DNA from: Halobellus sp. MBLA0158
GTDB taxonomy: Archaea; Halobacteriota; Halobacteria; Halobacteriales; Haloferacaceae
Assembly: GCF_041477585.1 (NCBI RefSeq)
Contig: NZ_JBGNYA010000001.1
Span: forward strand, 2,666,001 to 2,730,000
Direction of reading: 5' to 3'
DNA length: 64,000 nt
Positions 11,542-61,065 of this stretch are shown piece by piece. How positions within the stretch are numbered: the first letter of the stretch is position 1; every line of letters begins with the position of its first letter. The position numbers and the translations under genes were made by a program. Under the pieces are notes generated by a model, which worked only from the letters and a program-made list of their open reading frames with translations, did no database searches and was not told the origin of the DNA.

Positions 11542-11610
<69 letters not shown>

Positions 11611-11857
11611 CGAGTTTCGCACACTCAGTAGCCCGAACCGTCCGAAATCGACTTCTTATCAGCCGTGGTCATTAGGTTAAACAAGTCGAAGGTATATAAA
11701 ACCCACTATCTTGGCGGTTAGCCAACGTACGCTCAAGCATACAAGATATGAGTAGTACCTCAATTATGATAATATAAGGAATATACGGTACTGAATGCCC
11801 GAGGGTTGATTATACTGAATCAGATTGCGATGAGGCCGGGGAAAGACAGAAATCTCG

Positions 11858-12067: not shown

Positions 12068-12104
12068 GTCGCTCTCGCTGAATTCTGAGGGCTTAGTTCA
12101 CTTG

Positions 12105-12857
12105 TTATGGAGAAGTTTCACTAATTGAATCAAAAACATCATCCACATCTATACTGTGAGCCGTTCTTGTTTCGAAGACGAATACCTCGTATTCTCGACC
12201 TAATGGGTCTTCCTCATTTCCAAATCGATCTTTATATCGTACGTAAAAGCCTAATCTGAATGAACTTACCCCTTCCTCAATTAGGTGTGCAATCATAGTA
12301 TCAAGAGATTCGTATCCGGGTGGAGTATCTCCTTCTGATAGACCGACCCACGGGCTACATCTAAATTCAACCCGTCCTTCGTTGGGATGAAGGATGCTAA
12401 TATCCCCTGAATTGTCCCCGGAACGTTTCATCGGGTTTTCATAAGTATGAATCTGAAAATCGTGATCGTCACCGCGTGCTTCTGCTTCTACATATAGCGT
12501 TAAATTTTGAGCAACGCCTTCTCCACTATTCGCAAGTTTCAGTCTCGCCTCGGAATCCGACAAATTATATCGAAAATCAAAAGGGCCGACAAGGTATGGA
12601 GTATAGCGAGATTTTGCCAAGCGGGTCTGTTCTTTCTGAACCTCCATTTGTCCCTCGATAATCTTGTTCTGCCGATAATATATGATTATTAGGAGAATTG
12701 TGAGAATAGCATTTACACCAACACCAACAGATGATACAAACTCGCTGTCGGACGCCACGGTAATCAATAGATACGTGAATACTATTCCCGCTAACAGAAC
12801 TCCCCCGAGTAGGAGTGAATTGATTAATTTTGAACGACTTGGAAGTCTTCTCCCCAT
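12105..12857 (-). CDS. Two-helix membrane-anchored protein, unknown function
   Basis: 250 residues. Two N-terminal hydrophobic helices (about 11-35 LINSLLLGGVLLAGIVFTYL and 41-62 VGVGVNAILTILLIIIYY) are followed by a short polar coil (QNKIIEGQMEVQKEQTRLAK) and a C-terminal beta-rich domain of about 160 residues with no motif I know. Codon use and base content are distinctly AT-rich compared with the host. It lies 128 bp downstream of the restriction-methylation gene on the same strand. Such small membrane partners occur beside archaeal defence genes, but a shared role here is only a guess. Confidence 0.65.
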   Translation of the reverse strand: MGRRLPSRSKLINSLLLGGVLLAGIVFTYLLITVASDSEFVSSVGVGVNAILTILLIIIYYRQNKIIEGQMEVQKEQTRLAKSRYTPYLVGPFDFRYNLSDSEARLKLANSGEGVAQNLTLYVEAEARGDDHDFQIHTYENPMKRSGDNSGDISILHPNEGRVEFRCSPWVGLSEGDTPPGYESLDTMIAHLIEEGVSSFRLGFYVRYKDRFGNEEDPLGREYEVFVFETRTAHSIDVDDVFDSISETSP

Positions 12858-12985
12858 CTATCAGTTGTTTCTGAGTAGCAGATTATAAAGAAGTCCGGGT
12901 GGAGGAGTTATAATGTGATGAGGCGGCGTAGTCAGACCGTATTGACGTAGTCCACCAACTCGTACTTGTCCCACGGCTCGGCGAC

Positions 12986-15900: not shown

Positions 15901-16909
15901 CCTCCTTGTATCCGTCGGTCCACCACACGAAAATGTCGTCTTGGAACAGCCCTTCGACCAACTGCTCCTGCATATCGTCGATGAGGTTATCCGCCGCGAC
16001 GGGGAACGCATCGAGATTGATGCTTTGTCCGAACCCCTGCAATCCTCGGAAGTACTCGTCCATCCCTTCGTAGCCGGTGTCGGCGAAGAAGTCGTGGTCC
16101 TCCGTGGCTTTGGCGAGGAGTAGACGCGCGAGGAGGGCGTGGCCGCTTTCGAGACAGAACATAAAGTCCCGAAGGGACTGATTCCCGTCGATGAACGGCT
16201 CCCACGAGTTCGGAACCTCGTCGGGTTCGCTCGCGTAGGTCGCCTCCCAGAAGTCGTAGGCTCCCTTCACGAACTTCGCCTCTCGATCATCGCGGAGTTC
16301 TTCGAGGAGGTCCATCATCCCCGTCACGAGGTCAGCGAACGGACTACCCTCTTCGAGGCGGAAGGTGTCGAAGAAGTGTTCCTGTCCGAGTGCCGCTTGT
16401 GCGTCGAGTGGGATGGGATCGAGATCTTCGAGGAACTGATTCACGTCCTCTGGGTTCGTGAGATCGAACTCCCGCTTTTGGAGTGCGCTTACGAGATCGC
16501 GGGCTTCACTCTCGGTGACAGCTCCCATCGACAGTACGATGAGCGGACGGTCCTCACCACGCTGATAGAGACGCAGTTCCTCTCCGTTCGTCAAGACCCC
16601 GTATTCTGCCCGGAGGTAATCCATATAGTGGAATAACTGCGATTCGTGGGGCGGCAAATCGCGTCCGGTCGTCTTGAACTCGTAGACCGCTGTCACGGCT
16701 TCGTTGGAGTCGAGCGTGATGTAGTCGGGACGGCGGTCATCGGGGAGAGTGAACTCACTCCGGAGATCTGTTCCCGTTCCCTCGTAGTCGAGCGCGTCAT
16801 AGAACCCGTATTCGAGGAATAGGTTCTCCACATCGCGCTCGCTCATATCTCCGTCCGTTTGTTGGGCAATCGAATGAAGGGAGTCGTGGAGAGCGGAGGA
16901 GTCTGCCAT
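12986..16909 (-). CDS. Single-chain restriction-modification enzyme (type IIG, Eco57I-like)
   Basis: 1,307 residues from ATG 16,909; an in-frame ATG seven codons upstream (16,930) is possible. The N-terminal nuclease has a PD-(D/E)xK signature: D62 in RRPDYITLDSNE, then E77 and K79 in VYEFKTTG. A helical linker follows. The gamma-class adenine methyltransferase core has SAM motif I DPACGSGTF at 443-451 and catalytic NPPY at 711-714. The last about 300 residues form a target-recognition region (NSNALDFYLKHYTALKVDGY, then YLTPLPI), as in TaqI/Eco57I types. One protein would therefore recognise, methylate and cut DNA. It is the main cargo of the element and faces left toward the membrane protein gene. 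Seventeen further codons stay open in frame after the stop. Confidence 0.9.
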   Translation of the reverse strand: MADSSALHDSLHSIAQQTDGDMSERDVENLFLEYGFYDALDYEGTGTDLRSEFTLPDDRRPDYITLDSNEAVTAVYEFKTTGRDLPPHESQLFHYMDYLRAEYGVLTNGEELRLYQRGEDRPLIVLSMGAVTESEARDLVSALQKREFDLTNPEDVNQFLEDLDPIPLDAQAALGQEHFFDTFRLEEGSPFADLVTGMMDLLEELRDDREAKFVKGAYDFWEATYASEPDEVPNSWEPFIDGNQSLRDFMFCLESGHALLARLLLAKATEDHDFFADTGYEGMDEYFRGLQGFGQSINLDAFPVAADNLIDDMQEQLVEGLFQDDIFVWWTDGYKEEISRHHETGASQFRAVARGRGDEGGITRISEATRNRFSRAVAELFFNVLRFDFADVEGDLLGDLYQRYFDPETRKALGEFYTPQPVIDYIMDGVGYERGVSNQRLIDPACGSGTFLVEAVERYLTDVERYEDDPDWKEHLQDLCTRPRIVGLDVHPFAVLMAQIRFVVAILPAYRKAKKSHPNYTIRRLPIYRTDTLRNERELTGADLGEDGSRQMTFDAMTEDEQDVRIPVPLPVEVDEDEAAETEDGFLVRRVRMPLFDTIQLETGVGNFGEYFAALQGVLDTVKDHMALAEEFGDDFDWTYQSGLAERINYHTEREYSGVEEFFAPYVDDMLENVRYLKEEHNDGRLFKMFEDTVLALVVKNYMEYDYVVGNPPYVRIQNLPDSQKRMMNQLYESTTGNYDIYGPFYERGLEWLSEDTGKLGYITPNQFMTTDYGEGLRRVLLRESRINEVYDFRDSGVFEDAKNYPAIVILEDEPDANERKENEIRCVRVKGDTKEPTNRSLDTAILESVRQHRDDPGYEDEFINVFDHPQGDLDDGYWALMPPEELNIIHKMDEASDASVGDVTDSVFAGTQTSANDVFLVTPIDADRISADDTGSTVTVVPKGESREYEVETDTLRPWLQGRDINRWRGDWSGEHAIVPYTLDRDDDGNLTSNLISQKRLENELPLTWSYLTEHRDTLESREGGRFENRGDWYGFGYPKSMTRFEDPKLICPEIAAEATFMLDEVGTWFFKAAYGVQLEDEFKSRTDTFAALLNSNALDFYLKHYTALKVDGYYKYTTNYLTPLPITWGDDEDRDEIRESVSAITTALDTDAKTERFPEAYLGNYSGELDYITYEWQTRRYPVNAEVQGDVEGDFTVQAGRSDVINDPAMYSDDREARKRRAEYVHAAVDGRKVKSGEEMTIPIPRSDDGVEELLSRLDDDCDEVAATNTEVLEEMVNEVVYDMFGITAEEQDVIEDFLETFRVY

Positions 16910-17212
16910 TACGACCTTCGATGAAAGCACGCATCAAAAAGATAGGTGAGTAACCTTTCCGAAACCATCGCTTCTTAGCATAGAGTTGGAGACACAACTC
17001 CGGGGTTCGACTGTGGAAGACCACTCTCTATTTTTGGAATTACCCCGAACTAATGTCCACGCTGTCTCCGGATTATCGGTATCTATATGATACTGTACCG
17101 CGTCTGATAGAGTGAGGAGATTTTGCTGAGCGGTTTCGTTTGTAGTTCCAACTTCGGGTAGTGATTATTCTCCCGATAGGACTCAAGTGAAGCTTCTCCG
17201 CATCTGACAATA

Positions 17213-17842
17213 ATGGCACTACAAACAGAACCAGCGGTAAGCAACGAATCTGGTCATCCTTACGCGGGATTGGAGAATGCAGACACGAATTACGCTACTT
17301 GGTTTGATCCGAGAGACGTAGAGCAAACCGAGGAGTTCGAGAGTGATTCCGACTGGCGTAGAACTCGTAAACGTCTCTACTGGAAGCACCAAGACGCCCA
17401 ACATCGAGGCTATCAGAATGGCAAGAAGCGGGGGAACAAACGGTTCCAGACGTACCAATCAAATCAGCACCTGAGCCGCGCCTTCAGTAACGTCCTTGAG
17501 TTGACGGAGTCAGAGAAGATCGAAGCAGAGAGATGGTTCCGATGGCTAAACTTTGACAAGATCGGTCAAGATCTACGAGTGGTTGGTTTCGCTGTGTGTA
17601 TGTATATCGTTGAGTGCGACGAGCGTGATGAGCGTAGGGGAGACCCAAATTCGAAACACGAGTGGCCTCCCGAATTTCTGCGGTACTACGAGACACTCCC
17701 CGCCGAGTTGAAACGACGGTTCCCCAAAGTGTATGGAAAGGTGAGTTACCGGATTCGCTCGTGGTCAATCGGAGAAGACGAACCGGCGAGCGAGAATATG
17801 GACAAGTACGAGATGTACGATGCTCAGTTCTGGAGGAAATGA
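17213..17842 (+). CDS. Hypothetical protein of the tRNA-Glu element
   Basis: 209 residues starting MALQTEPAVSNESGHPYAGL. The middle is basic and helical (KRLYWKHQDAQHRGYQNGKK, GNKRFQTYQSN), then LTESEKIEAERWFRWLNFDK. This could fit a nucleic-acid-binding or regulatory protein. No catalytic motif is visible and I do not recognise the family. It reads away from the restriction gene, and the 300 bp between them must hold divergent promoters. Coding quality looks genuine: no internal low-complexity and balanced acidic/basic content. Confidence 0.6.
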   Translation: MALQTEPAVSNESGHPYAGLENADTNYATWFDPRDVEQTEEFESDSDWRRTRKRLYWKHQDAQHRGYQNGKKRGNKRFQTYQSNQHLSRAFSNVLELTESEKIEAERWFRWLNFDKIGQDLRVVGFAVCMYIVECDERDERRGDPNSKHEWPPEFLRYYETLPAELKRRFPKVYGKVSYRIRSWSIGEDEPASENMDKYEMYDAQFWRK

Positions 17843-17857
17843 AGGAGGGGGAGGAGG

Positions 17858-17871
17858 GGGTATATATACCC
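17858..17871. promoter_or_regulatory. Perfect 14-bp palindrome GGGTATATATACCC
   Basis: It lies 16 bp after the stop of the 209-residue gene and follows a purine-rich GGAGG-like run. It could act as an operator over a TATA element or as part of a transcript end. The sequence is exactly self-complementary. Confidence 0.45.
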
Positions 17872-17947
17872 GTTACCATTCCATAGAGTGAGGCGGGTTG
17901 CGAACGGCGAGTGAGCATCCCTCCCGATTCTCGAAGGAATGGATCTC

Positions 17948-18520
17948 CGAGGTTAAATGCGATGAGGGGTGGTTAGTGGGTAAGTGACTTAGAAGCGAGA
18001 ACTAATCCACGTTGAGTAAAATCGAGAGCTAAACCGCGAGGTCAATTCTCTGAGGTTAAATGCGATGACGCCACGTTTGGAACAGAGATCAAAAGAGAGG
18101 ACTAAAACTCGGTGGGTTACTTCTTGAACTACATCGTACTGAAACAGTATATAAATCCACAAGAACTAATCCGCCGTATTCTCCGGTAAGAGATCTCGGA
18201 GATATAATTCTCCGATTAAAATTGATTACCTCCATTCATACTGCCTGTCCCGTCTAATTCTTTCTCTCCTGAGTTCTGCCGCTTAAGCTACCCTCAATTC
18301 CCACCTCTCAGAGAAAATTTCTCGCGGCGACTTACTGAATACCCGCGCGCGTTCGCCCGACCGTGTGCTAACCGGGGCGGGCGCGCGACGAAGTGCTGTA
18401 CTACTGTGAACTAATCCGCCGAGGTTCAGCGCGATGAGCCGGTGCTTGAACTACAGCCGGTAGATCTCTGAGAATCGAAATCGGCGTTATCCTGTTACAC
18501 CCCCGCCTCATCGCACTCCA
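17948..18520. repeat. Dispersed repeats with core GAGGTTAAATGCGATGAG
   Basis: Copies: 17,948-17,967 (CGAGGTTAAATGCGATGAGG), 18,051-18,070 (TGAGGTTAAATGCGATGACG), 18,420-18,439 (CGAGGTTCAGCGCGATGAGC), and on the other strand 18,501-18,520 (core TGCGATGAGGCG). A companion motif GAACTAATCCGCC occurs at 18,163-18,175 and 18,408-18,420, where it abuts the third copy, with a weaker copy near 17,999. Spacings are about 100, 370 and 80 bp. The element also has GCGATGAGGC at 11,827 and a near match at 12,915 outside genes. Confidence 0.55.
18196..18215. promoter_or_regulatory. Inverted repeat TCGGAGA-TATAAT-TCTCCGA
   Basis: Two perfect 7-base arms flank TATAAT. Another TCTCCG half-site lies just upstream at about 18,179. 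The layout suggests a dimeric repressor site covering a TATA box; which gene it controls is unclear because no gene starts within 350 bp to the right. Confidence 0.4.
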
Positions 18521-18584
18521 AATTAGGTTGTAGCTCTGTGTCTTGGAATCGGTACGAGTATCTCACTCCCGATGAGCCGACCTC

Positions 18585-18851
18585 TCACGATGACCGCTCA
18601 CTCGGGAACCACACCAGAGAGTTCCCAACCATCTTTGCGTCCACGTCGCCCTCATCGCGTAGCCGACGGAGACGGTAATCTGCGTTGCGCCGTGTACATC
18701 CGACTGCTTCCGCGACCTCCTGCGTTGACGCCGGCTGTTGCTCGCGGACAGCTTCGAGGAAAGCCTCATCGGGATACTTCTCTCGTCCATCGCTCGCCTC
18801 ATCGCCCATATACGCGAGAAGGAGACGACGTGTATTAGATCTTTCCCACAT
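18585..18851 (-). CDS. Winged-helix DNA-binding regulator
   Basis: 88 residues starting MWERSNTRRLLLAYMGDEAS. Residues about 29-75 form a winged helix: FLEAVREQQPASTQEVAEAV, recognition helix GCTRRNADYRLRRLRDEG, and a wing DVDAKMVGNSLVWF. It resembles small ArsR/MarR-like and 'HTH domain' proteins of haloarchaeal plasmids. Its start codon lies inside a palindrome, and a second similar palindrome lies 13 bp upstream, so it probably controls itself and the divergent SWIM gene. Confidence 0.78.
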   Translation of the reverse strand: MWERSNTRRLLLAYMGDEASDGREKYPDEAFLEAVREQQPASTQEVAEAVGCTRRNADYRLRRLRDEGDVDAKMVGNSLVWFPSERSS

Positions 18852-18857
18852 AGGAAA
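18842..18857. promoter_or_regulatory. Operator-like palindrome over the regulator start codon
   Basis: TTTCCCACATAGGAAA: arms TTTCC and GGAAA around a 6-bp centre that contains the start codon (CAT at 18,849-18,851 on the plus strand). It pairs with the palindrome at 18,870-18,883, and both fit TTCCxAxxxxGGAA-like half-sites. The DNA between them is AT-rich (AATTATAAG), a likely TATA element. Confidence 0.5.
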
Positions 18858-18869
18858 TTATAAGTCATC

Positions 18870-18883
18870 TTCCTGCGTAGGAA
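18870..18883. promoter_or_regulatory. Second operator-like palindrome upstream of the regulator
   Basis: TTCCTGCGTAGGAA: arms TTCCT and AGGAA around GCGT. It lies 12 bp from the first palindrome on the far side of the AT-rich TATA-like core. Together the pair brackets the intergenic promoter between the regulator and the rightward SWIM gene. Confidence 0.5.
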
Positions 18884-18978
18884 AAGTCGAGAAGGTCGCC
18901 GTCCCTTGGGGCGTAGTTCCGTGAAAACGCCCGGCGTTGCACCGCCGGACGATGGCCTTCTATGGAGTTAGAACGCCA

Positions 18979-19509
18979 ATGGAAGATAGCACGACGACGG
19001 CTGATAAGCGCATCGCTGAGCAACTAAACTACGGCGCGAAAACAGCGAAGCGGGTTACGTGGGAGGCGTGGGAGTTCTCGATTGAAGCGCCTCACCTCGT
19101 CAGAGTGACGAACGCGAGTTACGGGTGTGAGAAAGACGAACACAGTTACCTCGTTGGTGCCGAGGATCGCGACGGGCTACTCGTTCCGGCAGAGTGTGAG
19201 TGCCCGGCGGATATGTACAACGAGGAGTATGACTGCAAGCACAAAGTCGCTCTCGCGACTATTGGTGGACCTCTCGTTCTACGAGCCGCTGTTGACCTCC
19301 CGACTCCGGGGGTTGAGGGCCGCAAGACTACCTCGCACACGTTGAAGGACAAGCTCCGAGCCGATGGTGGGGCGATCTCCGAGGAATCACGCGAGGACGG
19401 CGCGAGCGTCATCGGAGACGAACGCGAAGAGTGTGACTGTGCAGAACTCTCGGGTGATTTTCCGTGCTTTCGGTGCTTTATAAGTGGGGAGAAGATGCTC
19501 CCCGAGTAG
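18979..19509 (+). CDS. SWIM zinc-finger protein
   Basis: 176 residues from ATG 18,979 (MEDSTTTADKRIAEQLNYGA); an ATG at 18,952 is also in frame. The SWIM signature is ECECPADMYNEEYDCKHKVA at about 83-102, with ligands Cys-x-Cys...Cys-x-His. A preceding strand region (LVRVTNASYGCEKDEHSYLV) is typical. A second Cys cluster ends the protein (ECDCAELSGDFPCFRCF). SWIM proteins bind DNA or proteins, and haloarchaea have many on plasmids and elements. It is divergent from the winged-helix gene, sharing its palindromic control region. Confidence 0.82.
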   Translation: MEDSTTTADKRIAEQLNYGAKTAKRVTWEAWEFSIEAPHLVRVTNASYGCEKDEHSYLVGAEDRDGLLVPAECECPADMYNEEYDCKHKVALATIGGPLVLRAAVDLPTPGVEGRKTTSHTLKDKLRADGGAISEESREDGASVIGDEREECDCAELSGDFPCFRCFISGEKMLPE

Positions 19510-19519
19510 ACCGCTCGTT

Positions 19520-20179
19520 TTACGCGAGGCTATATTCGGAGATTCCGTGATCGGAAAGGTGGTATCTCCGAGCGTTTGGCCTCAATTCAATTTTGTCGTA
19601 AGAATCCGGCTTGTCAAATTCACTTTCCTCTACCGCATCCACTACCTCGTTGAGTTTCGATCTACGCTCTCTCGCTCGTCCTCGGCGGATGTACTCTTCC
19701 AGTTCTTTTGGCTCTTCGTCAACTGCTTCTGCGATTACTTCTCGGAGAGTCTCCCCGTCTTCATTTGTCGGTGGAGGGCCATCGGCAACTGCAGTACCAT
19801 CTCCGCTGGACGTACCATCCATCGCATCTATATGGCTAATAGCCCGTTCACACTCATCTTGAACCGCAGGAGCGAAGTCATCACCCATTACAAACTCATC
19901 GTCACGTTGTCGGATGATGTACCAATCAGGGCCATCATCAGGCACAAAGCTCTCGATAACTGGATCTTCATCGGTATTCCCAACACTGGTTTCGAGATTA
20001 CAGGATAGGTCTATCCCCATCTCATCAATTGCCTTACCAATGTCTCTTTGGGTGAGGTAAGGTCCTTCAGAGCGAGTCTTAACCCAGTGATGGGCGGCGA
20101 GGACTGCCACCTGATCGTTAATACTATCCTCTGTCTGGTGTCGTGATTTGTAATCGTTGACGAGATCGCGGAAGCTCAC
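19520..20179 (-). CDS. Hypothetical protein of the tRNA-Glu element
   Basis: 219 residues from a GTG start (SFRDLVNDYKSRHQTEDSIN). The N-terminal about 75 residues look like a helical DNA-binding or regulatory domain (QVAVLAAHHWVKTRSEGPYL, TQRDIGKAIDEMG, reminiscent of a winged helix). A disordered linker (TSSGDGTAVADGPPPTNEDG) and a C-terminal charged helix follow. It converges tail to tail with the SWIM gene, 10 bp apart. I do not recognise a family. Confidence 0.6.
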   Translation of the reverse strand: MSFRDLVNDYKSRHQTEDSINDQVAVLAAHHWVKTRSEGPYLTQRDIGKAIDEMGIDLSCNLETSVGNTDEDPVIESFVPDDGPDWYIIRQRDDEFVMGDDFAPAVQDECERAISHIDAMDGTSSGDGTAVADGPPPTNEDGETLREVIAEAVDEEPKELEEYIRRGRARERRSKLNEVVDAVEESEFDKPDSYDKIELRPNARRYHLSDHGISEYSLA

Positions 20180-20619
20180 GGATGGAAGGGGCCGACTTCT
20201 GAGTACTGCACCTTCCGGCAGTAAGATTTACATCGAACCCTACGAATTGTCGGCTGTCGTCACGAAGGTTCAGACTCCTGTCGGAAGGGATTGTGCGAAC
20301 CTGCTGGCACAGGTTCGAATCAATTCCACTTTCCTGAGAGTAGGACATACTTACCTTGGCCTACCCTATGGTATATTCTCTAAACTTAAAAATGGTGGGT
20401 TACTAATAATTACATAATGGTTGTTGGGTCTGTGTTTAAGTGGGCCTAAATTCACTCAAGAGCCATAATCCAAAATCTGATTATTCAGGTAATTAAATGT
20501 AATTGCCACTTCCTGCCGGCCTAATATTGTCATCCGAACCTCATAGCTACCAAAATCTTCCAATCCGCTTTCATCCAGCAATAGAGAAGATAGACGATAA
20601 TCAGGATCGCTACCGGGGA
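20180..20619. other. AT-rich gene-free stretch with one hairpin
   Basis: 440 bp with no convincing gene; the small frames present lack starts, domain features or codon bias. A perfect 8-bp hairpin at 20,296-20,317 has arms CGAACCTG and CAGGTTCG and loop CTGGCA. The following GGTTCGAATC is reminiscent of a tRNA T-loop. AT-rich DNA around 20,375-20,420 may hold promoters. Confidence 0.35.
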
Positions 20620-21042
20620 TTATCCATTCAGATTACGCTCGGTAAATTCGTTCTCGACAAGCGTCTGAATCCCACTCTCCTCGACGGACTGGAGATACCG
20701 CAACTGGTCGTCGGTTAGTTCCGAGACTGCAAAGCTCGCCGCCTCATCGCACTCCATCTCGATCTCCTCAAACGCGCCCAACTCCTCGAAGATGCGGAGA
20801 CGGATGTACCGACCGACTGTCTTGCTTCGTCGGGAGAACGTGTCGTGGAGATCAAGGAGTTCCTCTACGGGCGCATCAGGAACGGGTTTCTCCTCGGGGA
20901 TAGCCACGGAGACAAGCCCGAGTCCTTCCGTGAGGATCTCCACCTCGATGAGGTCGCGGATCTCCTCGTCGTCAGTCTCCCGGTGCAAGTCGATGAGCGC
21001 GGCGATGAGGGGCGTGCCGGATGGGAAGTGGTTTTCGTCCAT
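20620..21042 (-). CDS. Hypothetical acidic protein next to the integrase
   Basis: 140 residues (MDENHFPSGTPLIAALIDLH). Predominantly helical and strongly acidic, with DDEEIRDLIEVEILTEGLGL and LTDDQLRYLQSVEESGIQTL. The 3-bp gap to the integrase stop, same strand, suggests co-transcription with it. It could be a recombination directionality factor or modulator by position only; there is no sequence proof. GAT-GAG codon pairs are more frequent than in host genes. Confidence 0.6.
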   Translation of the reverse strand: MDENHFPSGTPLIAALIDLHRETDDEEIRDLIEVEILTEGLGLVSVAIPEEKPVPDAPVEELLDLHDTFSRRSKTVGRYIRLRIFEELGAFEEIEMECDEAASFAVSELTDDQLRYLQSVEESGIQTLVENEFTERNLNG

Positions 21043-21045
21043 TCG

Positions 21046-22152
21046 TTATCCCATCCGTTCGAGTGCTTCCTGTCGGTGTTCCACCGGGACGTTGTCGTAC
21101 TGCATCGTTGTTTGCTCGCTCTTGTGTCGGAGTTGGGCCTTCGTCGCGGCGAGATCTCGCTCGTGCGTCATCGCGGTGCCCACGGAATGACGGCACGCGT
21201 ACCAGCTCATCTTACGATTCTCGGTCGGTATCCCTGCCTCATCGCAGAGCTTCACGAGGAGACGGCGAAGGCTGTGTGACTGATACGGGTTCCCCTCTCG
21301 GGTGAGCCACAGTTCCTCGCGTCCATCGTATCGGTCGTACTGCTCGCGTTCATCGAGCCACCGTTGCAGTCCGTCAGCGGTTCGGTCGGTAAGCCCGACT
21401 ACCCAATTCCCCTCGTTCTTCGCTGAGTCTTCTTTCGGGATTCGGAGTACGCCGTTCTCCACGTCAACCCACGATACCTTCGCGCGTTCGACCTCGATGG
21501 GTCGAAGCCCGGCATCGAGACTCGTCCAGACTAACGAGGTGAACTTCCAGCCGTTAGCGCGCTCCCAATCATCGGGCGTGACCTCGGCCTTCGGCTTCCC
21601 GAACCGCTGTGCGAGGTGAGCCTTCCACCGGGTACGCTCCTCGGGAGAGAGGCTACTGTAGTGTGGGATCGAACCGTACTGTAGCGCGGCCTCGCGGATC
21701 TTCTTTCGCTCCTCGATGGTGAGGTATTCGCGGGGGCCGCCGCTACTGGAGTTGCTGAAGGACCGCTCGGACTCCCACTCGTCGGCGTTCTTCTCGTGCG
21801 CGAGCCATTTGTAGTACCGCTTGATCGCCTTCTGCGTGTTCGCCTTGTGGGTCGCAGAGTCGTCGGTGTAGAGCAGTTCCTTCATATACTCATCCGCGTG
21901 TTCGTGTGTGAGCGTCAGCGTGTAGCCGCCTTCTTGCTCCCACGCCCACCGGCAGAACTGATCGGTCCGGTACGCGGTGTTGGTGATCGTGTCCCGACTG
22001 TACCCTTCGGCCATCTCCGGATCTTTCCCGAGGTAGATGAGCCAGCGGATGAACTCCGCGCGGTGGTTCCGATAGTCGATGAGTTCCTTCTCGCTGAGGA
22101 CACCTCGACTGTGTCGGGTGGTTACGGGGAAATCTTGGGGTTCAAATCCCAT
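21046..22152 (-). CDS. Tyrosine recombinase (integrase) of the tRNA-Glu element
   Basis: 368 residues. A SAM-like core-binding domain spans about 25-125 (RHDF-like helices around HEHADEYMKELL). The catalytic domain has R217 in LDAGLRPIEV, the R321-H322 pair in WYACRHSVGT, H343 in LRHKSEQTTMQYDN and nucleophile Y352. The first His of the HxxR box is replaced by Tyr (Y318). It reads away from tRNA-Glu, 150 bp from it. A TATA-like CTTAAAAC sits about 24 bp before the ATG, predicting a leaderless mRNA. It would cut and join at the 69-bp repeat. Confidence 0.92.
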   Translation of the reverse strand: MGFEPQDFPVTTRHSRGVLSEKELIDYRNHRAEFIRWLIYLGKDPEMAEGYSRDTITNTAYRTDQFCRWAWEQEGGYTLTLTHEHADEYMKELLYTDDSATHKANTQKAIKRYYKWLAHEKNADEWESERSFSNSSSGGPREYLTIEERKKIREAALQYGSIPHYSSLSPEERTRWKAHLAQRFGKPKAEVTPDDWERANGWKFTSLVWTSLDAGLRPIEVERAKVSWVDVENGVLRIPKEDSAKNEGNWVVGLTDRTADGLQRWLDEREQYDRYDGREELWLTREGNPYQSHSLRRLLVKLCDEAGIPTENRKMSWYACRHSVGTAMTHERDLAATKAQLRHKSEQTTMQYDNVPVEHRQEALERMG

Positions 22153-22172
22153 CAGAAAACCCCCTCAAACAG

Positions 22173-22180
22173 TTTTAAGC
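22173..22180 (-). promoter_or_regulatory. TATA box of the integrase
   Basis: CTTAAAAC on the minus strand, centred about 24 bp upstream of the ATG at 22,152. The spacing fits a leaderless transcript, the usual haloarchaeal arrangement. Confidence 0.45.
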
Positions 22181-22301
22181 CTGACAGATCCCCGAATCGC
22201 ACGACTGCGCGGGGGTAACGGTTCAATCGAATCGACTTGGCTTTTGGTGGATTCATCGGTTTTCTCCACCACGGCTGAATTCAGACGGTAGAAGGCCTCT
22301 T

Positions 22302-22377
<76 letters not shown>

Positions 22378-25944: not shown

Positions 25945-26018
25945 GCCAGGGGAGCATGGGCGGTTCATGCACTCGACTTGTAATCGAGACTTCGTGGGTT
26001 CAAATCCCACCCCTGGCT
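25945..26018 (+). tRNA. tRNA-Thr (anticodon UGU), likely prophage attachment gene
   Basis: 74 nt. Acceptor GCCAGGG pairs with CCCTGGC, discriminator T. The anticodon stem CTCGA/TCGAG holds loop CTTGTAA, anticodon TGT. The T-arm is GTGGG-TTCAAAT-CCCAC. CCA is not encoded. Prophage-like genes start within 100 bp of its 3' end, so it is the probable integration site, but no second copy of its 3' end is present up to 64,000. The 93 bp between the tRNA and the first prophage gene show nothing clear. Confidence 0.93.
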
Positions 26019-26111
26019 CGTAACAAATTGTTTACACATCTATCGGCGTGACACTGTCGCGCCGGCGCCGTCACTGAGCACTTCTCCGAGTTCTCGGGAG
26101 GTGACGGCCTG

Positions 26112-30184: not shown

Positions 30185-31030
30185 ATGGCGCTTTCAGCGT
30201 TCCCTTACCCGGGCGGGAAAACAACGTACCACCAGGAGATCCTCAAGTACTTCCCGGACCACCGCCGGTACGTCGAGCCGTTCGGCGGCTCGGCGGCTGT
30301 ACTGCTGAACAAGCCGACGAGCTACATCGAGGTCTACAATGACCTCGACGATGACGTGGTCCACTTTTTCGAGGTCCTTCGCGATCGTCGCGACGAGCTC
30401 GAAGCGTGGCTGTCGAACGTCCCGTACTCCCGGTCGGTGTACGAGAAGTGGGTCAGCGAGTTCTACGACGGCTACCGTCCCAGCGATGACGTCGAAAGAG
30501 CGGGAAAGTGGTTCTACCTTCGGTTCTCGCAATTCAACGGCTCGCTGGACCGCCGCAACGGATTCAAGACGGGCGGGAAGCGCAACGAAGCCCGCTCGTT
30601 CCGCGGGAGCATCGACGATCTCGACACGATCGCCGCGCGACTCCAGGAAGTCACGATCGAGTGCCAGCCGTACCAGGACGTGCTCGACCGCTACGACCAC
30701 CCGGACACGCTGTTCTACCTGGATCCACCGTACTACCAGACGAACAGCGATCGCGACCACTACCGCGTCGGCGGCGACTTCGATCACGAACGCTTCGTCG
30801 ACGAACTCCGCGATCGCGACGGGTGCTGGATCGTGTCCTATGGTGAACTCCCGCCCGGGCTGGAGGACCTCGCGACGACCGTTGAGACATACAGAGCGAT
30901 GTACTCGATGTCCTACGACGACGAGCGGAGCGAAGCCACGGAAACGCTCGCGATGAACTTCGATCCTGACGAGGAGCCGGAGTTCGTCCCAGCGAGACAG
31001 TCGCGTCTTACCACGGGAGGCAACCGATGA
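30185..31030 (+). CDS. DNA adenine-N6 methyltransferase, Dam/D12 class
   Basis: 281 residues. Alpha-class order: SAM motif FPYPGGKTTYHQ (about 6-17) and VEPFGGSAAVLLNKP, then catalytic DPPYYQT in TLFYLDPPYYQTNSD. The middle (FYLRFSQFNGSLDRRNGFKT) is the helical target-recognition region. It would methylate adenine in virus DNA, as protection from restriction or as a timing mark. There is no partner nuclease. It overlaps the next gene by 4 bp (ATGA). Confidence 0.92.
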   Translation: MALSAFPYPGGKTTYHQEILKYFPDHRRYVEPFGGSAAVLLNKPTSYIEVYNDLDDDVVHFFEVLRDRRDELEAWLSNVPYSRSVYEKWVSEFYDGYRPSDDVERAGKWFYLRFSQFNGSLDRRNGFKTGGKRNEARSFRGSIDDLDTIAARLQEVTIECQPYQDVLDRYDHPDTLFYLDPPYYQTNSDRDHYRVGGDFDHERFVDELRDRDGCWIVSYGELPPGLEDLATTVETYRAMYSMSYDDERSEATETLAMNFDPDEEPEFVPARQSRLTTGGNR

Positions 31031-31689: not shown

Positions 31690-32272
31690 CGACCACATCG
31701 GCGCCGGTGCCCAGGCCACGCCGGAGCCGCTGATCATCCCGCTCGAAGAGTGTCACACTGATGCGGCGAAACGTCTCTGGAGTGAACGCTTCGAGTGCGA
31801 TGACGAGAAGGCCGACAAGTGGCTGTACAACGCCCGCATCGACACCGACTACGTCACGCAGGGCTTCGTCGCGGTCGACCGCACCCAGGTCGTCGGATTC
31901 GGAATTGCGGCTGTCGGCTCCGCCGAGTATGCGAACAACTACGTCGGCGACGCCCTCGATCTCGACGTTCCGGATCCGACCGGAATCCTCCACATCTTAG
32001 TCGTCGACGCGGACTACGAGGGCCAGGGCATCGGGACGGAGCTCGTGAAGTGCCGGCTGCAGTGGCTCGCGACCACGGACGCCGAAACGGTGATCGGGAC
32101 GGCCTGGCACCGCGAGACCCACCACGACAGCCGCGCACTCTTCGCGAAGTTCGGCTTCGAGCGGGTCGCGACGATCGAAGAGTACTACCTGAAAACACAC
32201 GGCCACACCGACTGTCCGGATTGCGAGGCCGAGTGCCGCTGTGATGCGAGTGTCTGGAGGCGAGACCAATGA
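31682..32272 (+). CDS. GNAT acetyltransferase with C-terminal zinc ribbon
   Basis: 196 residues. The acetyl-CoA motif is TGILHILVVDADYEGQGIGT followed by ELVKCRLQW (about 100-128), and the AHDSRALFAKFGFERVATIE-like segment closes the fold. The extra C-terminus CPDCEAECRCDASVWRRDQ has four Cys and could bind zinc. Placement between two DNA methyltransferases is unusual; it might acetylate a modified base, a host protein or a toxin. Substrate unproven. Confidence 0.78.
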   Translation: MSNDHIGAGAQATPEPLIIPLEECHTDAAKRLWSERFECDDEKADKWLYNARIDTDYVTQGFVAVDRTQVVGFGIAAVGSAEYANNYVGDALDLDVPDPTGILHILVVDADYEGQGIGTELVKCRLQWLATTDAETVIGTAWHRETHHDSRALFAKFGFERVATIEEYYLKTHGHTDCPDCEAECRCDASVWRRDQ

Positions 32273-34140
32273 GCGACGACACGATCTACGGCGTTGATTT
32301 GTTCTGCGGCGCCGGCGGCTTCAGCGAGGGCCTCCAGCAGGCCAGTACGGACCTCGGCGTCGACGTCGAACTGGCGGCGATCAACCACTGGGAGCCCGCT
32401 GTCCAGACCCACGAGGCGAACCACCCCGACGCCCACCAGTACCACTCGAAGATCGAGCAACTCCACCCGCCGAACGTCGCCGAGGAACTCGCCGGTGAGG
32501 CTGACCCGGACATCGACCTACTCGTCGGCGGGCCCGAATGCACGCACTTCTCGCGAGCCCGCGGCGGCAAACCCGTCTCCGAACAAAAGCGGATGAGCCC
32601 GTGGCAGATCCTCGACTGGCTCGAAAAGCTCCGCGTCGACGCGTTCATCATCGAGAACGTGCCTGAGATCCAGGACTGGGGCCCGGTCGACGACGAGGGC
32701 CAGCCCGTGCGCGACGGCTCGATCTTCGATGCGTGGGTGAACGCGCTCAACCAGCTCGGGTATGCCGTCGACTGGACCGAACTCGTCGCCGCCGACTACG
32801 GCGACCCGACCTCGCGTCAGCGGTTCTTCATCATCGGGCGCAAGCACGGCCGTGTCACGTTCCCCGAGCCAACTCACAGCGACGAGCGCGAAGAGCTCCC
32901 GGACTACCGGACGGCCGCGGAGATTATCGACTGGTCGGATCTCGGCGGCTCGATCTGGACGCGCGACCTCGACGACGGCCGCAAGACGCCCCCGAAGCAC
33001 TCCACGATGCAACGGATTGCGGAGGGCCTCCGCCGGCACTGCGGCGACGCCCTGGATCCGTTCGCTGACGTCCTCGAAACGCTGGGGCGTGAGGAGATTC
33101 GACAGCTCAGATCGGAGCGCGTCGTCCCGGCACACCACGCCGCGACCGTCGCCGATGCCGTCGACGAGCCGTTCCTGGTGCCGGTCGGAGGTGCCACGAC
33201 GGCGACGCCGTGGATCCAGAAGCACAAGAAAAACAGCCCGTCGCAGGACGTCGCGACGCCGTTGCACACGATCCACGCGAACGGGAACCACTTCGCCCTC
33301 GGAACGGCGACGACACACCTGCTCCGCCAGCAGGACGGCGCTCACCCAGTCGACATCCGCGAATCACCGGTCCCGACGATCGCGACGCGAGGCGGCCACG
33401 CGATCGTGACGACCGAGACGGTGCCACTCATCGAGCCGAAGAACGGCCGGCATCGAGGGCTCCACAGCAACCCGCTATATCCGGCGGCCGCCCGGCCGAT
33501 CCACACGATCACGGCGGACCCGCGGGCGAAAATCGTCTGCCCGTCGCTGATCCGCTACTCCCACGGCGGCGCGACGCTGGACCTCGACGAGCCGATGCCG
33601 ACGATCGCGACCGAGCGCGGCGGCGTCTTCGCGCTCGCAGCGCCGTATCTCTGCCCGCTGTACAACGGCCGCGAGGGCCAACGCCCACGGACCCGCGCGG
33701 TCGACCGGCCGCTGATGACGGTCACAGCCTCGAAGAGTCCGGCCGCGGTCACGACGCCGCTCGTCCAGCCGTTCCTCGACGACTACGAGGGCCCGCCGAA
33801 GGCCCTCGACGAGCCGCTCGGCACGATCACGAGTCGCGACCGGTTTGCCTTGGTGATTCCCGAGCTGTGGCCGTGGGGTATCGATATCCGCTATCGGATG
33901 CTCCAGCCCGCCGAACTCAAGCAGGCGCAGGGCTTCCCAGCGGACTACGAGCTCGTCGGCACCAAGACCGACCGGACCAAGCAAATCGGTAACGCGGTTC
34001 CGGTCGGGCTCGCGAAAGCGCTGTGCAAGCACGTGCTGACTGCCGAGGATCCGAGCCTCGCGACTTACGGCGGCGGGCTGGCTGACGATCCGGACGCCGA
34101 CATCCCGTCCTACGAGGAGGTGAGCGCGACCGATGACTGA
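32269..34140 (+). CDS. DNA cytosine-C5 methyltransferase with repeated target-recognition region
   Basis: 623 residues. Motif I GVDLFCGAGGFSEG (about 8-20), motif IV GGPECTHFS with nucleophile C91 (the usual Pro-Pro-Cys reads Pro-Glu-Cys), motif VI IIENVPEI (about 127-134), motif VIII QRFFIIGRK. The final motifs (YRMLQPAELKQAQGFPADY, then TKQIGNAVPVGLAKAL) close the fold. The chain is about 200 residues longer than a minimal enzyme because about 300-550 hold six tandem units of the type PxxTIxxxxxFALVxPxL. It overlaps its neighbours by 4 and 8 bp. Likely protects virus DNA. Confidence 0.93.
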   Translation: MSDDTIYGVDLFCGAGGFSEGLQQASTDLGVDVELAAINHWEPAVQTHEANHPDAHQYHSKIEQLHPPNVAEELAGEADPDIDLLVGGPECTHFSRARGGKPVSEQKRMSPWQILDWLEKLRVDAFIIENVPEIQDWGPVDDEGQPVRDGSIFDAWVNALNQLGYAVDWTELVAADYGDPTSRQRFFIIGRKHGRVTFPEPTHSDEREELPDYRTAAEIIDWSDLGGSIWTRDLDDGRKTPPKHSTMQRIAEGLRRHCGDALDPFADVLETLGREEIRQLRSERVVPAHHAATVADAVDEPFLVPVGGATTATPWIQKHKKNSPSQDVATPLHTIHANGNHFALGTATTHLLRQQDGAHPVDIRESPVPTIATRGGHAIVTTETVPLIEPKNGRHRGLHSNPLYPAAARPIHTITADPRAKIVCPSLIRYSHGGATLDLDEPMPTIATERGGVFALAAPYLCPLYNGREGQRPRTRAVDRPLMTVTASKSPAAVTTPLVQPFLDDYEGPPKALDEPLGTITSRDRFALVIPELWPWGIDIRYRMLQPAELKQAQGFPADYELVGTKTDRTKQIGNAVPVGLAKALCKHVLTAEDPSLATYGGGLADDPDADIPSYEEVSATDD

Positions 34141-38220: not shown

Positions 38221-38324
38221 CCCAACACAGTTACGTCGAGCGGAAGGTTCGCGGCCGGGAGTTTGAGGAGGACGTCCCGTGGCGCGACCTATTCGATCTT
38301 GACGAGCACGACTCCGGACCGTAG
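38217..38324 (+). CDS. Very small prophage protein before tRNA-Tyr
   Basis: 35 residues (MTQHSYVERKVRGREFEEDV), starting in an ATGA overlap with the phosphoesterase. Its TAG stop lies within the first bases of tRNA-Tyr. The overlap with the upstream gene supports translation. Function unknown. Confidence 0.5.
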   Translation: MTQHSYVERKVRGREFEEDVPWRDLFDLDEHDSGP

Positions 38325-38387
38325 CGCAGTGGATGACGCGCTCGGCTGTAAACCGAGAGGACGCAGGTTCGATTCCTGTCGGTCCGA
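38315..38387 (+). tRNA. Virus-borne tRNA-Tyr (anticodon GUA)
   Basis: 73 nt. Acceptor CGGACCG pairs with CGGTCCG; C1-G72 is the archaeal tyrosine identity pair. T8-A9 precede a D-arm. Anticodon stem CTCGG/CCGAG with loop CTGTAAA, anticodon GTA. T-arm GCAGG-TTCGATT-CCTGT. No intron and no encoded CCA. It lies inside the prophage between protein genes on the same strand. Confidence 0.9.
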
Positions 38388-38501
38388 TTTGAGGCGTGGG
38401 TTGATTGCGGCGAGAACGGGCGGGATGGTCAAGTCCTGTGCCACCGTCCGGACGGGAGCCTGATCACTCTCGACCGCCGTCAGCAGGACCGATCGCCTCG
38501 T

Positions 38502-38574
38502 GGACTCGTAGCGCAACTGGGAGCGCACCGTCCTGAAGAGGCGGCGTGTCTCGGTTCAAGTCCGAGCGAGTCCA
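38502..38574 (+). tRNA. Virus-borne tRNA-Phe (anticodon GAA)
   Basis: 73 nt. Acceptor GGACTCG pairs with CGAGTCC, discriminator A. D-arm GCGC...GCGC. Anticodon stem CCGTC/GGCGG with one T-G pair, loop CTGAAGA, anticodon GAA. Variable loop CGTGT, T-arm CTCGG-TTCAAGT-CCGAG. Found 114 bp after tRNA-Tyr; both aromatic tRNAs likely share one transcript. Confidence 0.88.
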
Positions 38575-38581
38575 CTTCTCG

Positions 38582-49181: not shown

Positions 49182-50087
49182 ATGACTGGCGCTGGTAGTG
49201 CGACGGTCGCGTTCGGTCTCGAAGACGGCTTCGGCGGGTCGGTCATCGACACAGGGTCAGACGGGAACCCGGACTACTTCCTCCCGTTCAAGAACCCGAG
49301 CGTCGAGGAGTTGTCGCTGGACAACGCCCTCCAGCGCGAACGTGACCCAGGCGACGTCGAACCGGACGGCTCGCTCGCCCAGAACTTCGAAGGCGGGATC
49401 AACATCACCGGCGAACTCGCCGAGCCGCCGAAGTGGCACGATCTCGTATTCAACGATGGCGGGACCGGGTTCATCCCGGGACGAATGCCATCGGCGAAGT
49501 TCTTCTTTGGCATCGACTACCTTGACGGCACCGCCGAGTGGACCGCCGAGCAGGCGATCACAACCGACGCGACGATCAACTGGCAGCAGGGCCAGCCGCC
49601 GACCGTCGACTGGACACTGATCTACGGGAATGCGTCGTCAGGCACGTCGATCACGCCCTCGAACATCCAGAAGCCTGCCCTCGGCGATATGTACGCCTTC
49701 CACGGCCTGGACCTGACAATCGACGGGGCGTCGGTCTCGAAGCTTCAGTCGGCGTCGCTGTCGATCCCGACGAACGCGCGGTTCCATCGCGACGATACGC
49801 GCCACCCCGCGGATGCTGTGATCGGAGCCGTGAACCCCACACTCTCCGTTCAAGCGATCATCTCCGGCGTCTCGAATCTGGAGGCAGCCCTTGGCGGCTC
49901 AACGCCGGTCTCGATGCTGTCTGAAGTGTCGGGCTCGATGGCGTTCACGAGCGGCAACGGCGACACCGTCACCTACAACCTCGGCGGGATGAAGCCGGCC
50001 AACTACTCGTGGGATCAACTGATCAACACAGACGGCGACGCCCAGGATCCCACCGAGTTCCACGTCTCATCGCTGGGGGTGGCCTGA
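49182..50087 (+). CDS. Major tail (tube) protein
   Basis: 301 residues, rich in beta strands: GSATVAFGLEDGFGGSVIDT, INITGELAEPPKWHDLVFND, ATINWQQGQPPTVDWTLIYG, and a second similar half (NPTLSVQAIISGVSNLEAAL, GDTVTYNLGGMKPANYSWDQ). The two-domain beta pattern may be two tube folds. Directly upstream of the G/GT chaperone and tape measure, where the tube gene is expected. Confidence 0.8.
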   Translation: MTGAGSATVAFGLEDGFGGSVIDTGSDGNPDYFLPFKNPSVEELSLDNALQRERDPGDVEPDGSLAQNFEGGINITGELAEPPKWHDLVFNDGGTGFIPGRMPSAKFFFGIDYLDGTAEWTAEQAITTDATINWQQGQPPTVDWTLIYGNASSGTSITPSNIQKPALGDMYAFHGLDLTIDGASVSKLQSASLSIPTNARFHRDDTRHPADAVIGAVNPTLSVQAIISGVSNLEAALGGSTPVSMLSEVSGSMAFTSGNGDTVTYNLGGMKPANYSWDQLINTDGDAQDPTEFHVSSLGVA

Positions 50088-50088
50088 G

Positions 50089-50649
50089 ATGCCCCTCCGA
50101 AAGAAGACGATCGATTTCGACGAGGAGATCAAACGCCTCGAATCGCGGCGGGAAGAACTCCTCGAACAAGCGGCCACCCTGGAGTCCGGCAATCCCGAAC
50201 TCCAGCGGCTCCAGTCCGAAGGCCAGACGATCGACGATCGTCTTGCCGGCGTCCGCTGGGCGCGTGATGAGGCCTTCGACGACTCCGCGGTCTCAGTCTG
50301 GGACGAAGACGTCGATGAGATCATCCTCGGCGGCCTGACCGGCCGCGAGTACGGGAAGGTCGAGGATGAACTCGGATCGGCCGCCAGCGAGCGCGGCGTG
50401 TCGCTGGCGAACGGGACGGCCCGGATCTACCTCGTCGCCCGCGGGACCGTCTCGGCTCCGTACGTCGACGGCTACGACGAGACTGAGGAACTGGCTGCGA
50501 CGGGGGAGCTTCCCAGGCAGTTCCTCGCCTGGGCCGAGGCCCACATCGACGACCTCAGCACGGTTGGAGGGTCCGAGGGAAACGAGAAGCCTTTCTCCGC
50601 TGCGCTCGCGGAGAAGCGTCGGACGATGTCGGCCGACGAACAGAGCTAA
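50089..50649 (+). CDS. Tail assembly chaperone G (zero-frame product)
   Basis: 186 residues. N-terminal helical pair (EEIKRLESRREELLEQAATL), then TIDDRLAGVRWARDEAFDDS, DVDEIILGGLTGREYGKVED and WAEAHIDDLSTVGGSEG. Its last about 21 residues come after a slippery site and are polar. By position, between tail tube and tape measure, and with the frameshift cassette, this is the G protein that coats the tape measure during tail assembly. Confidence 0.85.
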   Translation: MPLRKKTIDFDEEIKRLESRREELLEQAATLESGNPELQRLQSEGQTIDDRLAGVRWARDEAFDDSAVSVWDEDVDEIILGGLTGREYGKVEDELGSAASERGVSLANGTARIYLVARGTVSAPYVDGYDETEELAATGELPRQFLAWAEAHIDDLSTVGGSEGNEKPFSAALAEKRRTMSADEQS

Positions 50650-50786
50650 ACTGGTATCTCACTGTCGCCGCCCTCCACGGGCACGCCCCACGCGATGCGC
50701 AAGAGTGGCCGCTCGCTGACCTCCGACGCCTCGCACTGGCGCACGAACTGACGATCGCTAAACAGCACCCGTTCACCGATGTCTGA
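50089..50786 (+). CDS. Tail assembly chaperone GT, made by programmed -1 frameshift
   Basis: The zero frame runs to codon 165 (AAC at 50,581-50,583) and then continues in the -1 frame for about 67 more residues to the TGA at 50,784-50,786. Total about 232 residues. The T part reads ...ELNWYLTVAALHGHAPRDAQ, then EWPLADLRRLALAHELTIAK and QHPFTDV. Its last codons overlap the tape measure start (ATGTCTGA). Only this frame is free of stops here. It is the expected T domain that links the chaperone to the tape measure. Confidence 0.85.
50577..50615 (+). promoter_or_regulatory. Programmed -1 frameshift signal: slippery heptamer plus hairpin
   Basis: GGGAAAC at 50,577-50,583 is read G GGA AAC in the zero frame, the canonical X XXY YYZ form (lambda uses GGGAAAG). 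After a 9-nt spacer an 8-bp perfect hairpin follows: TTCTCCGC at 50,593-50,600, loop TGCGCTC, GCGGAGAA at 50,608-50,615. The open -1 frame begins well upstream and runs to the tape measure start. Confidence 0.88.
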
Positions 50787-52029
50787 ATTCTCAACAACCG
50801 CGGCCCTGGAAACCGTCGTCGACGAGCGATCGCTCAGCGCCGCGGAGCAGACGATCACTGACCGACTGGGCGATGTCACGGTTCGGGTCGACGCACGGCC
50901 ACAGGCATCTGCTGACGGAGGTCAACAAACGACCCAGCAATTGGGTCGGGCTCCACAGCAGGGGCCGTCTGTGACGGGCGGTACGACGGCGTCCGAACCC
51001 GAGGGCGTTTCAAATATCCTCACTGCGCAGCTCGAGGTCCAGGAAGGGATCTACGAACTCGTCGAGGATATCGCAGATCAACAGGACGGTGGCCTGCTCG
51101 GCGGTACCGATATCTTCCAGACGCTCACCGAGACTGGCGCCGGTGCCGCAGGCGAGGTCGCAGGCGAATCTGCGGGTGCCGTCGCCGACGTCGTCGGGAG
51201 CGCTGCAGGCCCTGCGCTCGGTAGCGTGATCGGTGAGTCGCTGCGGAGTCTCTTTCCCGGTGGCGATGGTGGCTCCGTCGAGCTCACAAAACCCGGTTGG
51301 GTGCCGCTCGAAGTCACACGGCCCAGTTGGACGCCGTTGGCTGTTGATCGCCCTGAGTGGATACCGCTGTCGGTCGATGAGCCTGCCTGGAGTGTCACCG
51401 TCAGCGAGCCCAGCTGGAAGGTCGAGGTGGCGCGGCCGGACTGGAAAATCCCCGTAGCAAAGACGGGCCAGTCGATCAGCATTCAGCGGCCGGACTGGCT
51501 CGGATCGCTCACGGGAGGCCAACCGGACCAGTCATCCGGCGGTCAGACAGTCATCCGCCAAACGCGGTCGACGGGGAGACAGACCGGCACCGCTGACGTC
51601 CCAGGAAAGGGGCTCGCTGAAAGCGTCATTGAAGGCGCTGGAAAGGGGGGTGCTGCTGGAGCTGGCCTCGGTGTTGCGTTGGGCTTCGCAGGCGGACCAT
51701 TCGCTCCATTGTCAGTCCCAACTGGTGGCGTGGTCGGCGGCGCAGCCGGCGGCATCATCGGCGGCACAGCCGGCGCGATCGGCTACTTCGACCGGCGGTT
51801 CGAGGCAACGGGTGGCGGGCGATCGTCCGCAAGGCCAGTCACGAACGAGATCTCGATCGAGAACCGCCCGCGGTATGAGATCCGTGTCGACGGTCCCGAT
51901 CGGAATGAAATCCGACGCGCAGTTGAAGATGCACAACGCGACAACCTCCGCGAGCTGGAAAGTCGTCTCGATGATGTTGAACAACGCCTGGACCGGATGA
52001 AACGCGCTTTCGAGAGCGGGACGCTGTGA
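50779..52029 (+). CDS. Tape measure protein with Trp-repeat region
   Basis: 416 residues. N-terminal helices (LSAAEQTITDRLGDVTVRVD) precede a Gln/Gly-rich segment, then VSNILTAQLEVQEGIYELVE and a Gly/Ala-rich hydrophobic stretch (EVAGESAGAVADVVGSAAGP). Residues 171-240 form seven Pro-x-Trp units, and a second Gly-rich hydrophobic region (about 290-340, GAGLGVALGFAGG) suits membrane insertion. The C-terminus is a coiled coil (LRELESRLDDVEQRLDRMKR). Short for a tape measure; at about 0.15 nm per residue it predicts a tail of roughly 60 nm. It starts within the T-frame stop. Confidence 0.78.
   Translation: MSEFSTTAALETVVDERSLSAAEQTITDRLGDVTVRVDARPQASADGGQQTTQQLGRAPQQGPSVTGGTTASEPEGVSNILTAQLEVQEGIYELVEDIADQQDGGLLGGTDIFQTLTETGAGAAGEVAGESAGAVADVVGSAAGPALGSVIGESLRSLFPGGDGGSVELTKPGWVPLEVTRPSWTPLAVDRPEWIPLSVDEPAWSVTVSEPSWKVEVARPDWKIPVAKTGQSISIQRPDWLGSLTGGQPDQSSGGQTVIRQTRSTGRQTGTADVPGKGLAESVIEGAGKGGAAGAGLGVALGFAGGPFAPLSVPTGGVVGGAAGGIIGGTAGAIGYFDRRFEATGGGRSSARPVTNEISIENRPRYEIRVDGPDRNEIRRAVEDAQRDNLRELESRLDDVEQRLDRMKRAFESGTL
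51289..51498 (+). repeat. Seven Pro-x-Trp repeats encoded in the tape measure gene
   Basis: In protein terms residues 171-240: KPGWVPLEVT, RPSWTPLAVD, RPEWIPLSVD, EPAWSVTVSE, PSWKVEVA, RPDWKIPVAK and a last RPDW after TGQSISIQ. The unit is about ten residues with Pro-x-Trp fixed and alternating hydrophobic positions. Confidence 0.8.
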
Positions 52030-60312: not shown

Positions 60313-61065
60313 CTACGTCGAGTGGATCGCGTCCAACTGCCGAGCCGTGTTCGTCCCGTTACGGCCGATATACACCTCGCTGGTACTCGGCTGGGCCCAC
60401 CCCATTAGCTGCATCAGGGGGAGCATCTCCAGCCCCCGAGACGCGTGATACGTCGCGGCCGTCGCGCGCAACGTGTGCGGGGAGACATCGGCGGGGCCGA
60501 GCCGCTCGGCCTCCTCGGCGGCCCGCTTCACCCTGCGGTTCAGCGCGTTCGAGCCGACCTCGACGCGGTTGTACTCGTCCGACGCAAAGTAGCGCTCGAT
60601 GAACAACTCGGCCCTCGCGTCGAACCCGAAGTACACCTCGCGGGCGGCCGCCTCCGTCTTCGGCGTCCACATCCATTCGAGCGCCTCGTCCATCGTCAGC
60701 TCGTCGGCGATCTCGACGCGCTGTTTCGCGAGCTGTTGGCAGTAGCCGCAGACCTCTCCATCGATGCCCTTCGAGCAGGGCTGGTGCGAGGGGATGCGGA
60801 TCATCTTCTGCCGCCAGTCGATCCACTCCTCGGTGAGGTGTGCGAGTTCACCACGCCGGAGCCCGAGTCGGCCGAGCGTGTAGACGATGAACGTCGGATC
60901 CGGCTCGTAGTAGTACTCGCTGCGGGAAAGGGTCCGCGCGCCCTCCATCAAGAGCTCAAACTCCATATCCGAGAGGGCGTCTTCCTTCGAGTGCCGGACT
61001 GACGAGCCTGCCCGGCCGGCGGCGTGGATCGGGTTCTGAGTGTTCTGGCGACGGTGCGTACTCAT
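60313..61065 (-). CDS. Prophage tyrosine recombinase with zinc-knuckle insert, lacking the usual N-domain
   Basis: 250 residues. Catalytic residues are all present: R70 in LGLRRGELAHL, H197 and R200 in SPHTLRATAATYH, W223 in LMGWAQPSTSEVYIG and Y232. The usual about 90-residue core-binding (SAM-like) domain is missing; only about 45 residues precede the catalytic domain. Between the first strands lies H94-x2-C97 and C106-x2-C109 (HQPCSKGIDGEVCGYC), probably a small zinc knuckle. It reads leftward, opposite to the late genes, with gene-poor DNA at its start. Confidence 0.85.
   Translation of the reverse strand: MSTHRRQNTQNPIHAAGRAGSSVRHSKEDALSDMEFELLMEGARTLSRSEYYYEPDPTFIVYTLGRLGLRRGELAHLTEEWIDWRQKMIRIPSHQPCSKGIDGEVCGYCQQLAKQRVEIADELTMDEALEWMWTPKTEAAAREVYFGFDARAELFIERYFASDEYNRVEVGSNALNRRVKRAAEEAERLGPADVSPHTLRATAATYHASRGLEMLPLMQLMGWAQPSTSEVYIGRNGTNTARQLDAIHST

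Follow-up and report, generated by a model that had tools for sequence, protein, structure and literature searches.

Background

In phage lambda, the tail assembly chaperones G and GT reportedly arise by a programmed frameshift, as described by Levin in 1993 and by Xu, Hendrix and Duda in 2004. For Archaea, a 2021 review lists one reported -1 programmed frameshift, in a Saccharolobus fucosidase, with virus cases additionally drawn from genome analysis (PMC8211752). Among haloarchaeal viruses, a G/T -1 frameshift is predicted in HCTV-1, HCTV-2, HCTV-5 and HVTV-1 (Sencilo 2013 and Pietila 2013, as reviewed in PMC5009743 and PMC8211752), a -1 slip at G GGA AAT is predicted upstream of the tape measure gene of Hardycor1 (HrrHc1_110/115; PMC7911831), and HF1-group myoviruses are thought to use a +1 shift (PMC7230728). 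The principle is therefore already known for other halovirus groups (PMC5009743, PMC8211752, PMC7911831), and the mechanism is not new. For BJ1, CGphi46 or the provirus family considered here, our literature search, with most subscription papers outside its reach, found no description of a frameshift.

Here we analyze a G/T locus in Halobellus sp. MBLA0158. The window, i.e. the whole stretch of DNA that was analyzed, comprises 64,000 nt (contig NZ_JBGNYA010000001.1, positions 2,666,001-2,730,000) of a 3.29-Mb genome, and all coordinates below are those of the window. Comparison with related loci indicates that the gene very probably undergoes a programmed -1 ribosomal frameshift and encodes the G/T tail assembly chaperone of a BJ1-like tailed haloarchaeal provirus.

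The provirus and its tail genes

A tailed provirus spans roughly 26 kb to 61 kb of the window and encodes an MCM helicase, two DNA methyltransferases, terminase, portal, protease, HK97-type capsid, tail tube and integrase. A tRNA-Thr(TGT) (25945-26019) lies at its left end and a tyrosine integrase (60313-61065) at its right end, where no second tRNA-Thr copy of at least 13 bp was found. The two viral methyltransferases (30185-31030 and 32269-34140) are a D12-class adenine and a C-5 cytosine enzyme, and just upstream of the terminase region the provirus carries tRNA-Tyr(GTA) and tRNA-Phe(GAA) (38315-38575), in addition to copies elsewhere in the host genome. Another integrated element, unrelated to the provirus and ~10.8 kb long (11542-22377), stands out by its low GC content (0.49-0.59, vs about 0.70 upstream and 0.67 downstream). 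At one end it has an intact tRNA-Glu(TTC) (22303-22377) and, at the other, an exact but partial copy of that gene (11543-11613).

Within the provirus, three tail genes follow one another on the forward strand. The first (49182-50087) encodes the tail tube, or major tail, protein of 301 aa (Pfam Phage_tube_2 PF18906, E 5.5e-12; phrog_18409, E 1.4e-90), which shares 38.8% identity with BJ1 gp60. The second (50089-50649) encodes G, the zero-frame tail assembly chaperone candidate of 186 aa (phrog_19457, E 1.8e-27), for which we found 34 haloarchaeal viral relatives. The third is an ORF of 416 aa (50779-52029), probably a short tape measure protein to judge from its position, a match to phrog_32118 (E 2.1e-31) and a weak match to the tape measure family phrog_167 (E 0.0014). 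An earlier reading of the window, made from the sequence only, had located this gene between those for the tail tube and the tape measure, and these matches on either side agree with it; among relatives, the tube gene lies upstream of G in 28 of 30. The same reading had the -1 frame ending exactly in the tape measure start codon, which needs correction, as the T stop (TGA, 50784-50786) lies beyond the downstream ATG (50779-50781) and the two genes overlap by 8 nt.

AlphaFold2 modeled G with a mean pLDDT of 91.8. No chaperone family was matched by G in Pfam, and no solved fold in a PDB fold search; its fold matches in BFVD were unnamed viral proteins, plus one weak match to an annotated TAC (E 0.085, though with a probability of 0.98). 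A chaperone role for G and GT is suggested by the gene order and by the frameshift itself.

The slip site and its conservation

The heptamer GGGAAAC (50577-50583, forward strand) lies near the 3' end of the G ORF and is read in phase as G GGA AAC, its single in-phase occurrence among 6,313 codon positions in 17 provirus genes. The -1 frame contains no stop from 50487 until the TGA at 50784-50786, so that T, the -1-frame extension (50583-50786), has 67 codons plus stop past the shift, and the predicted GT protein has 165 + 67 = 232 aa. The sequence-only reading had given the same phase, about the same open length and the same sizes for G and GT, all of which we recovered. The phrog_19457 match covers G residues 1-165 and stops with the codon that immediately precedes the predicted shift.

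Relatives were collected with a protein search using G against 391 genomes of the same class, of which 33, the window's own included, had a match; one further relative came from viral contigs and two loci from a profile search, and the isolates BJ1 and CGphi46 were found through their tail tube protein and a divergent G. Searching phage records with the window G by tblastn gave no match, nor did a scan of viral contigs with the tube protein. Two candidates (L032, L033) were rejected, as their similarity is confined to the surroundings of a WAEAHIDD motif, in bacterial proteins that appear transglutaminase-like by inspection, and several weak matches (G109, G125, G158, L088-L092) were left uncounted, covering G partially and falling for the most part within long ORFs unrelated to it.

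An in-phase slippery heptamer is present in 34/34 relatives, with no case of loss: 32 carry GGGAAAC, one GGGAAAT (L020) and one AAAAAAC, although three of the loci are near-duplicates and the relatives share ancestry, so that these are not independent events. In the first 30 that were read (28 GGGAAAC, one GGGAAAT, one AAAAAAC, all in phase) the heptamer lies 33-96 nt before the G stop; both loci from the profile search have GGGAAAC, and the isolated viruses BJ1 and CGphi46 have both the heptamer and a homologous T frame. Over the same set, G identity to the window drops to about 20-30%. Heptamer and open -1 frame, two of the features whose conservation the sequence-only reading had proposed to compare, are thus kept throughout.

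The codons used at the site are unusual for these genes. Of the 329 glycine codons found elsewhere in the relatives' G genes, GGA accounts for 31 (~9%), but it is the codon at 27/27 glycine slip sites of the non-redundant set. The codon before the slip glycine encodes any of eight amino acids (E, G, V, A, S, P, K, Q), and its last base always fits the heptamer. A naive product of codon frequencies is ~4e-40, a value that ignores shared ancestry and gives the direction only. By these counts, the codon pattern at the slip site is beyond what amino-acid conservation alone explains.

Two relatives show local peculiarities. One (L011) carries a tandem pair of overlapping slip sites, both in phase, at 1980-1992 (GGGAAAGGGAAAC). 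In another (L009), the G gene carries an exact tandem duplication of 30 residues directly before the slip site (EDQRISTVANLPVHYLIWAEARIGELTGMG), which is missing in the otherwise near-identical L007.

T as a probable coding extension of G

T peptides of the relatives are homologous and align with the consensus RG....D....DY....A...GH.P........RDLE, which includes one invariant glycine, and their similarity begins near the slip site. Beyond the G stop, where a single frame is read, third codon positions differ more often than second ones in 8/8 close pairs, several of which have a sequence in common. Modeled alone by AlphaFold2, T reached a mean pLDDT of 87.4 with three main helices; it had no PHROG match above noise and no match in a PDB fold search. 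Taken together, the alignments and substitution patterns indicate that T is under protein-level constraint and a genuine coding part.

We considered whether T could instead be a separate small gene with its own start, translated by re-initiation or leaky coupling, with the heptamer incidental. Overlapping genes are frequent in tailed-virus operons, and in some relatives a GTG lies in the T frame, about 40-50 nt upstream of the heptamer; however, no ATG, GTG or TTG occurs anywhere in the T frame of the window, nor in that of many relatives, and the T frame of five relatives (L010, L021, L022, L024, L029) is open from only 0-3 nt upstream of the heptamer and therefore leaves no room for an upstream start. 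A separate gene would also leave unexplained why the heptamer is conserved through a rare codon choice, and we consider this reading very improbable. Slightly less probable still is that the open -1 frame reflects chance or decay in a defective provirus, by a frameshift mutation or sequencing error. Proviruses do decay, and in GC-rich DNA frames stay open by chance, but the same arrangement in 34 relatives, two of them isolated viruses, contradicts this reading, as do the protein-level conservation and predicted fold of T. Slippage during transcription would be expected to yield an identical fusion protein, but three G and three A are runs too short for polymerase slippage and the conservation tracks codon phase (X XXY YYZ), leaving this the least probable origin of T, with a chance close to nil.

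Downstream structure and other candidate stimulators

In the window, the heptamer is followed by a 9-nt spacer (GAGAAGCCT) and a hairpin (50593-50615, forward strand), whose exact 8-bp stem pairs TTCTCCGC (50593-50600) with GCGGAGAA (50608-50615) across a 7-nt loop, precisely as the sequence-only reading described it. Perfect stems of at least 8 bp at that spacing occur at ~0.26% of provirus control positions and at 0.41% of positions in the relatives' loci. Conservation of the stem, which that reading had likewise proposed to compare, failed to appear: among 27 non-redundant relatives, none has a perfect stem of at least 6 bp in the same spacing range. The mean folding-energy (MFE) percentile of the relatives' 40-nt downstream windows is 0.39, the mean dinucleotide-shuffle z of downstream folding is -0.8, and long perfect stems are no commoner in relatives than in controls; we rejected the hairpin as a conserved element on these three measures. 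The 3' arm GCGGAGAA falls in the codons of a T motif, RGEAS, and a G motif, LAEKR; both motifs are also seen in relatives that lack the 5' arm. Strong folds different from this hairpin, and particular to each locus, occur in a few relatives (L011, L013, L017, L020, L024, L028, L030). The hairpin may be a local stimulator of slippage in this provirus, but the element is not defined by it. Of the "complete cassette" claimed by the earlier reading, the heptamer, the open frame and the stem do exist, but with the stem unconserved the role given to the hairpin was overstated.

Upstream of the heptamer, Shine-Dalgarno-like stimulators showed no enrichment (mean percentile 0.44 vs synonymous shuffles). 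As neither a conserved downstream stem nor such enrichment is seen, the heptamer alone, with an Asn tRNA in the A site at G GGA AAY, may set the G:GT ratio in the BJ1-like family, a reading that we offer tentatively and consider somewhat less likely than not.

Proposed mechanism

Given a conserved slip signal, a T that is coding and the order of the genes, we infer that ribosomes slip here, and that they do so as the exception. The majority of ribosomes would terminate at the G stop and release the 186-aa G. In a minority, tRNA-Gly on GGA and tRNA-Asn on AAC would move back together by one base onto GGG AAA (tandem slippage), and the slipped ribosomes would read 67 more codons to yield GT of 232 aa. 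That haloarchaeal ribosomes use a lambda-like slip was an inference of the sequence-only reading, and it gains support from the heptamer and -1 frame in every relative together with a T that is conserved and, in the window, start-less. If the division of labor is that of lambda, as reviewed in PMC5009743, the tape measure protein would be covered by the G part, and the T part would bring in tail-tube subunits.

The host encodes tRNA-Asn(GUU), tRNA-Gly(UCC, CCC, GCC) and both tRNA-Lys(UUU) and tRNA-Lys(CUU). An Asn tRNA in the A site of the slip is also used at many eukaryotic viral sites. The preference for AAY may reflect firm pairing of the host tRNA-Lys(CUU) with AAG, which would make AAG a poor slip codon. 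HCTV-5 is reported to use G_GGA_AAG (PMC5009743), and avoidance of AAG is accordingly no rule for haloviruses.

Comparison with known systems

As in lambda, G is preceded by the tail tube gene and followed by the probable tape measure gene, the predicted -1 shift falls at G GGA AAN near the 3' end of G, and T would be reached through it. Unlike in lambda, the A-site codon is AAC (Asn) rather than AAG, the host is archaeal, and the provirus G has no Pfam-level relation to known chaperone families. Mature lambda virions contain neither G nor GT. Among haloviruses, HCTV-1 has a G_GGA_AAC identical to that of the provirus (reviewed in PMC5009743 and PMC8211752), and HCTV-1, HCTV-2, HCTV-5 and HVTV-1 are viruses distinct from the BJ1-like group. 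Unlike HCTV-5, none of the 34 relatives has AAG as its sole A-site codon. The slip site of Hardycor1, another halovirus, differs from that of the provirus in its last base, and its GGGAAAT recurs in L020.

Close counterparts are found in the Graaviviridae, where BJ1 gp61 and CGphi46 HALG_00051 have the same gene order, a GGGAAAC that is in phase and 79 nt away from the G stop, and a homologous T. The provirus shares with both isolates the G/T arrangement and a tube protein of 38-39% identity, and carries a tyrosine integrase. In the records of BJ1 and CGphi46 T is unannotated, and these records, as well as gene models such as PHROG 19457, miss the T domain. What appears to be new, from the comparison of genomes made here, is the near-invariance of the slip site across the BJ1-like family, along with the unannotated T of BJ1 and CGphi46. 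A slip site so strongly conserved, in a family that includes these two isolates, offers a clean test of haloarchaeal frameshifting and of the signals that it requires.
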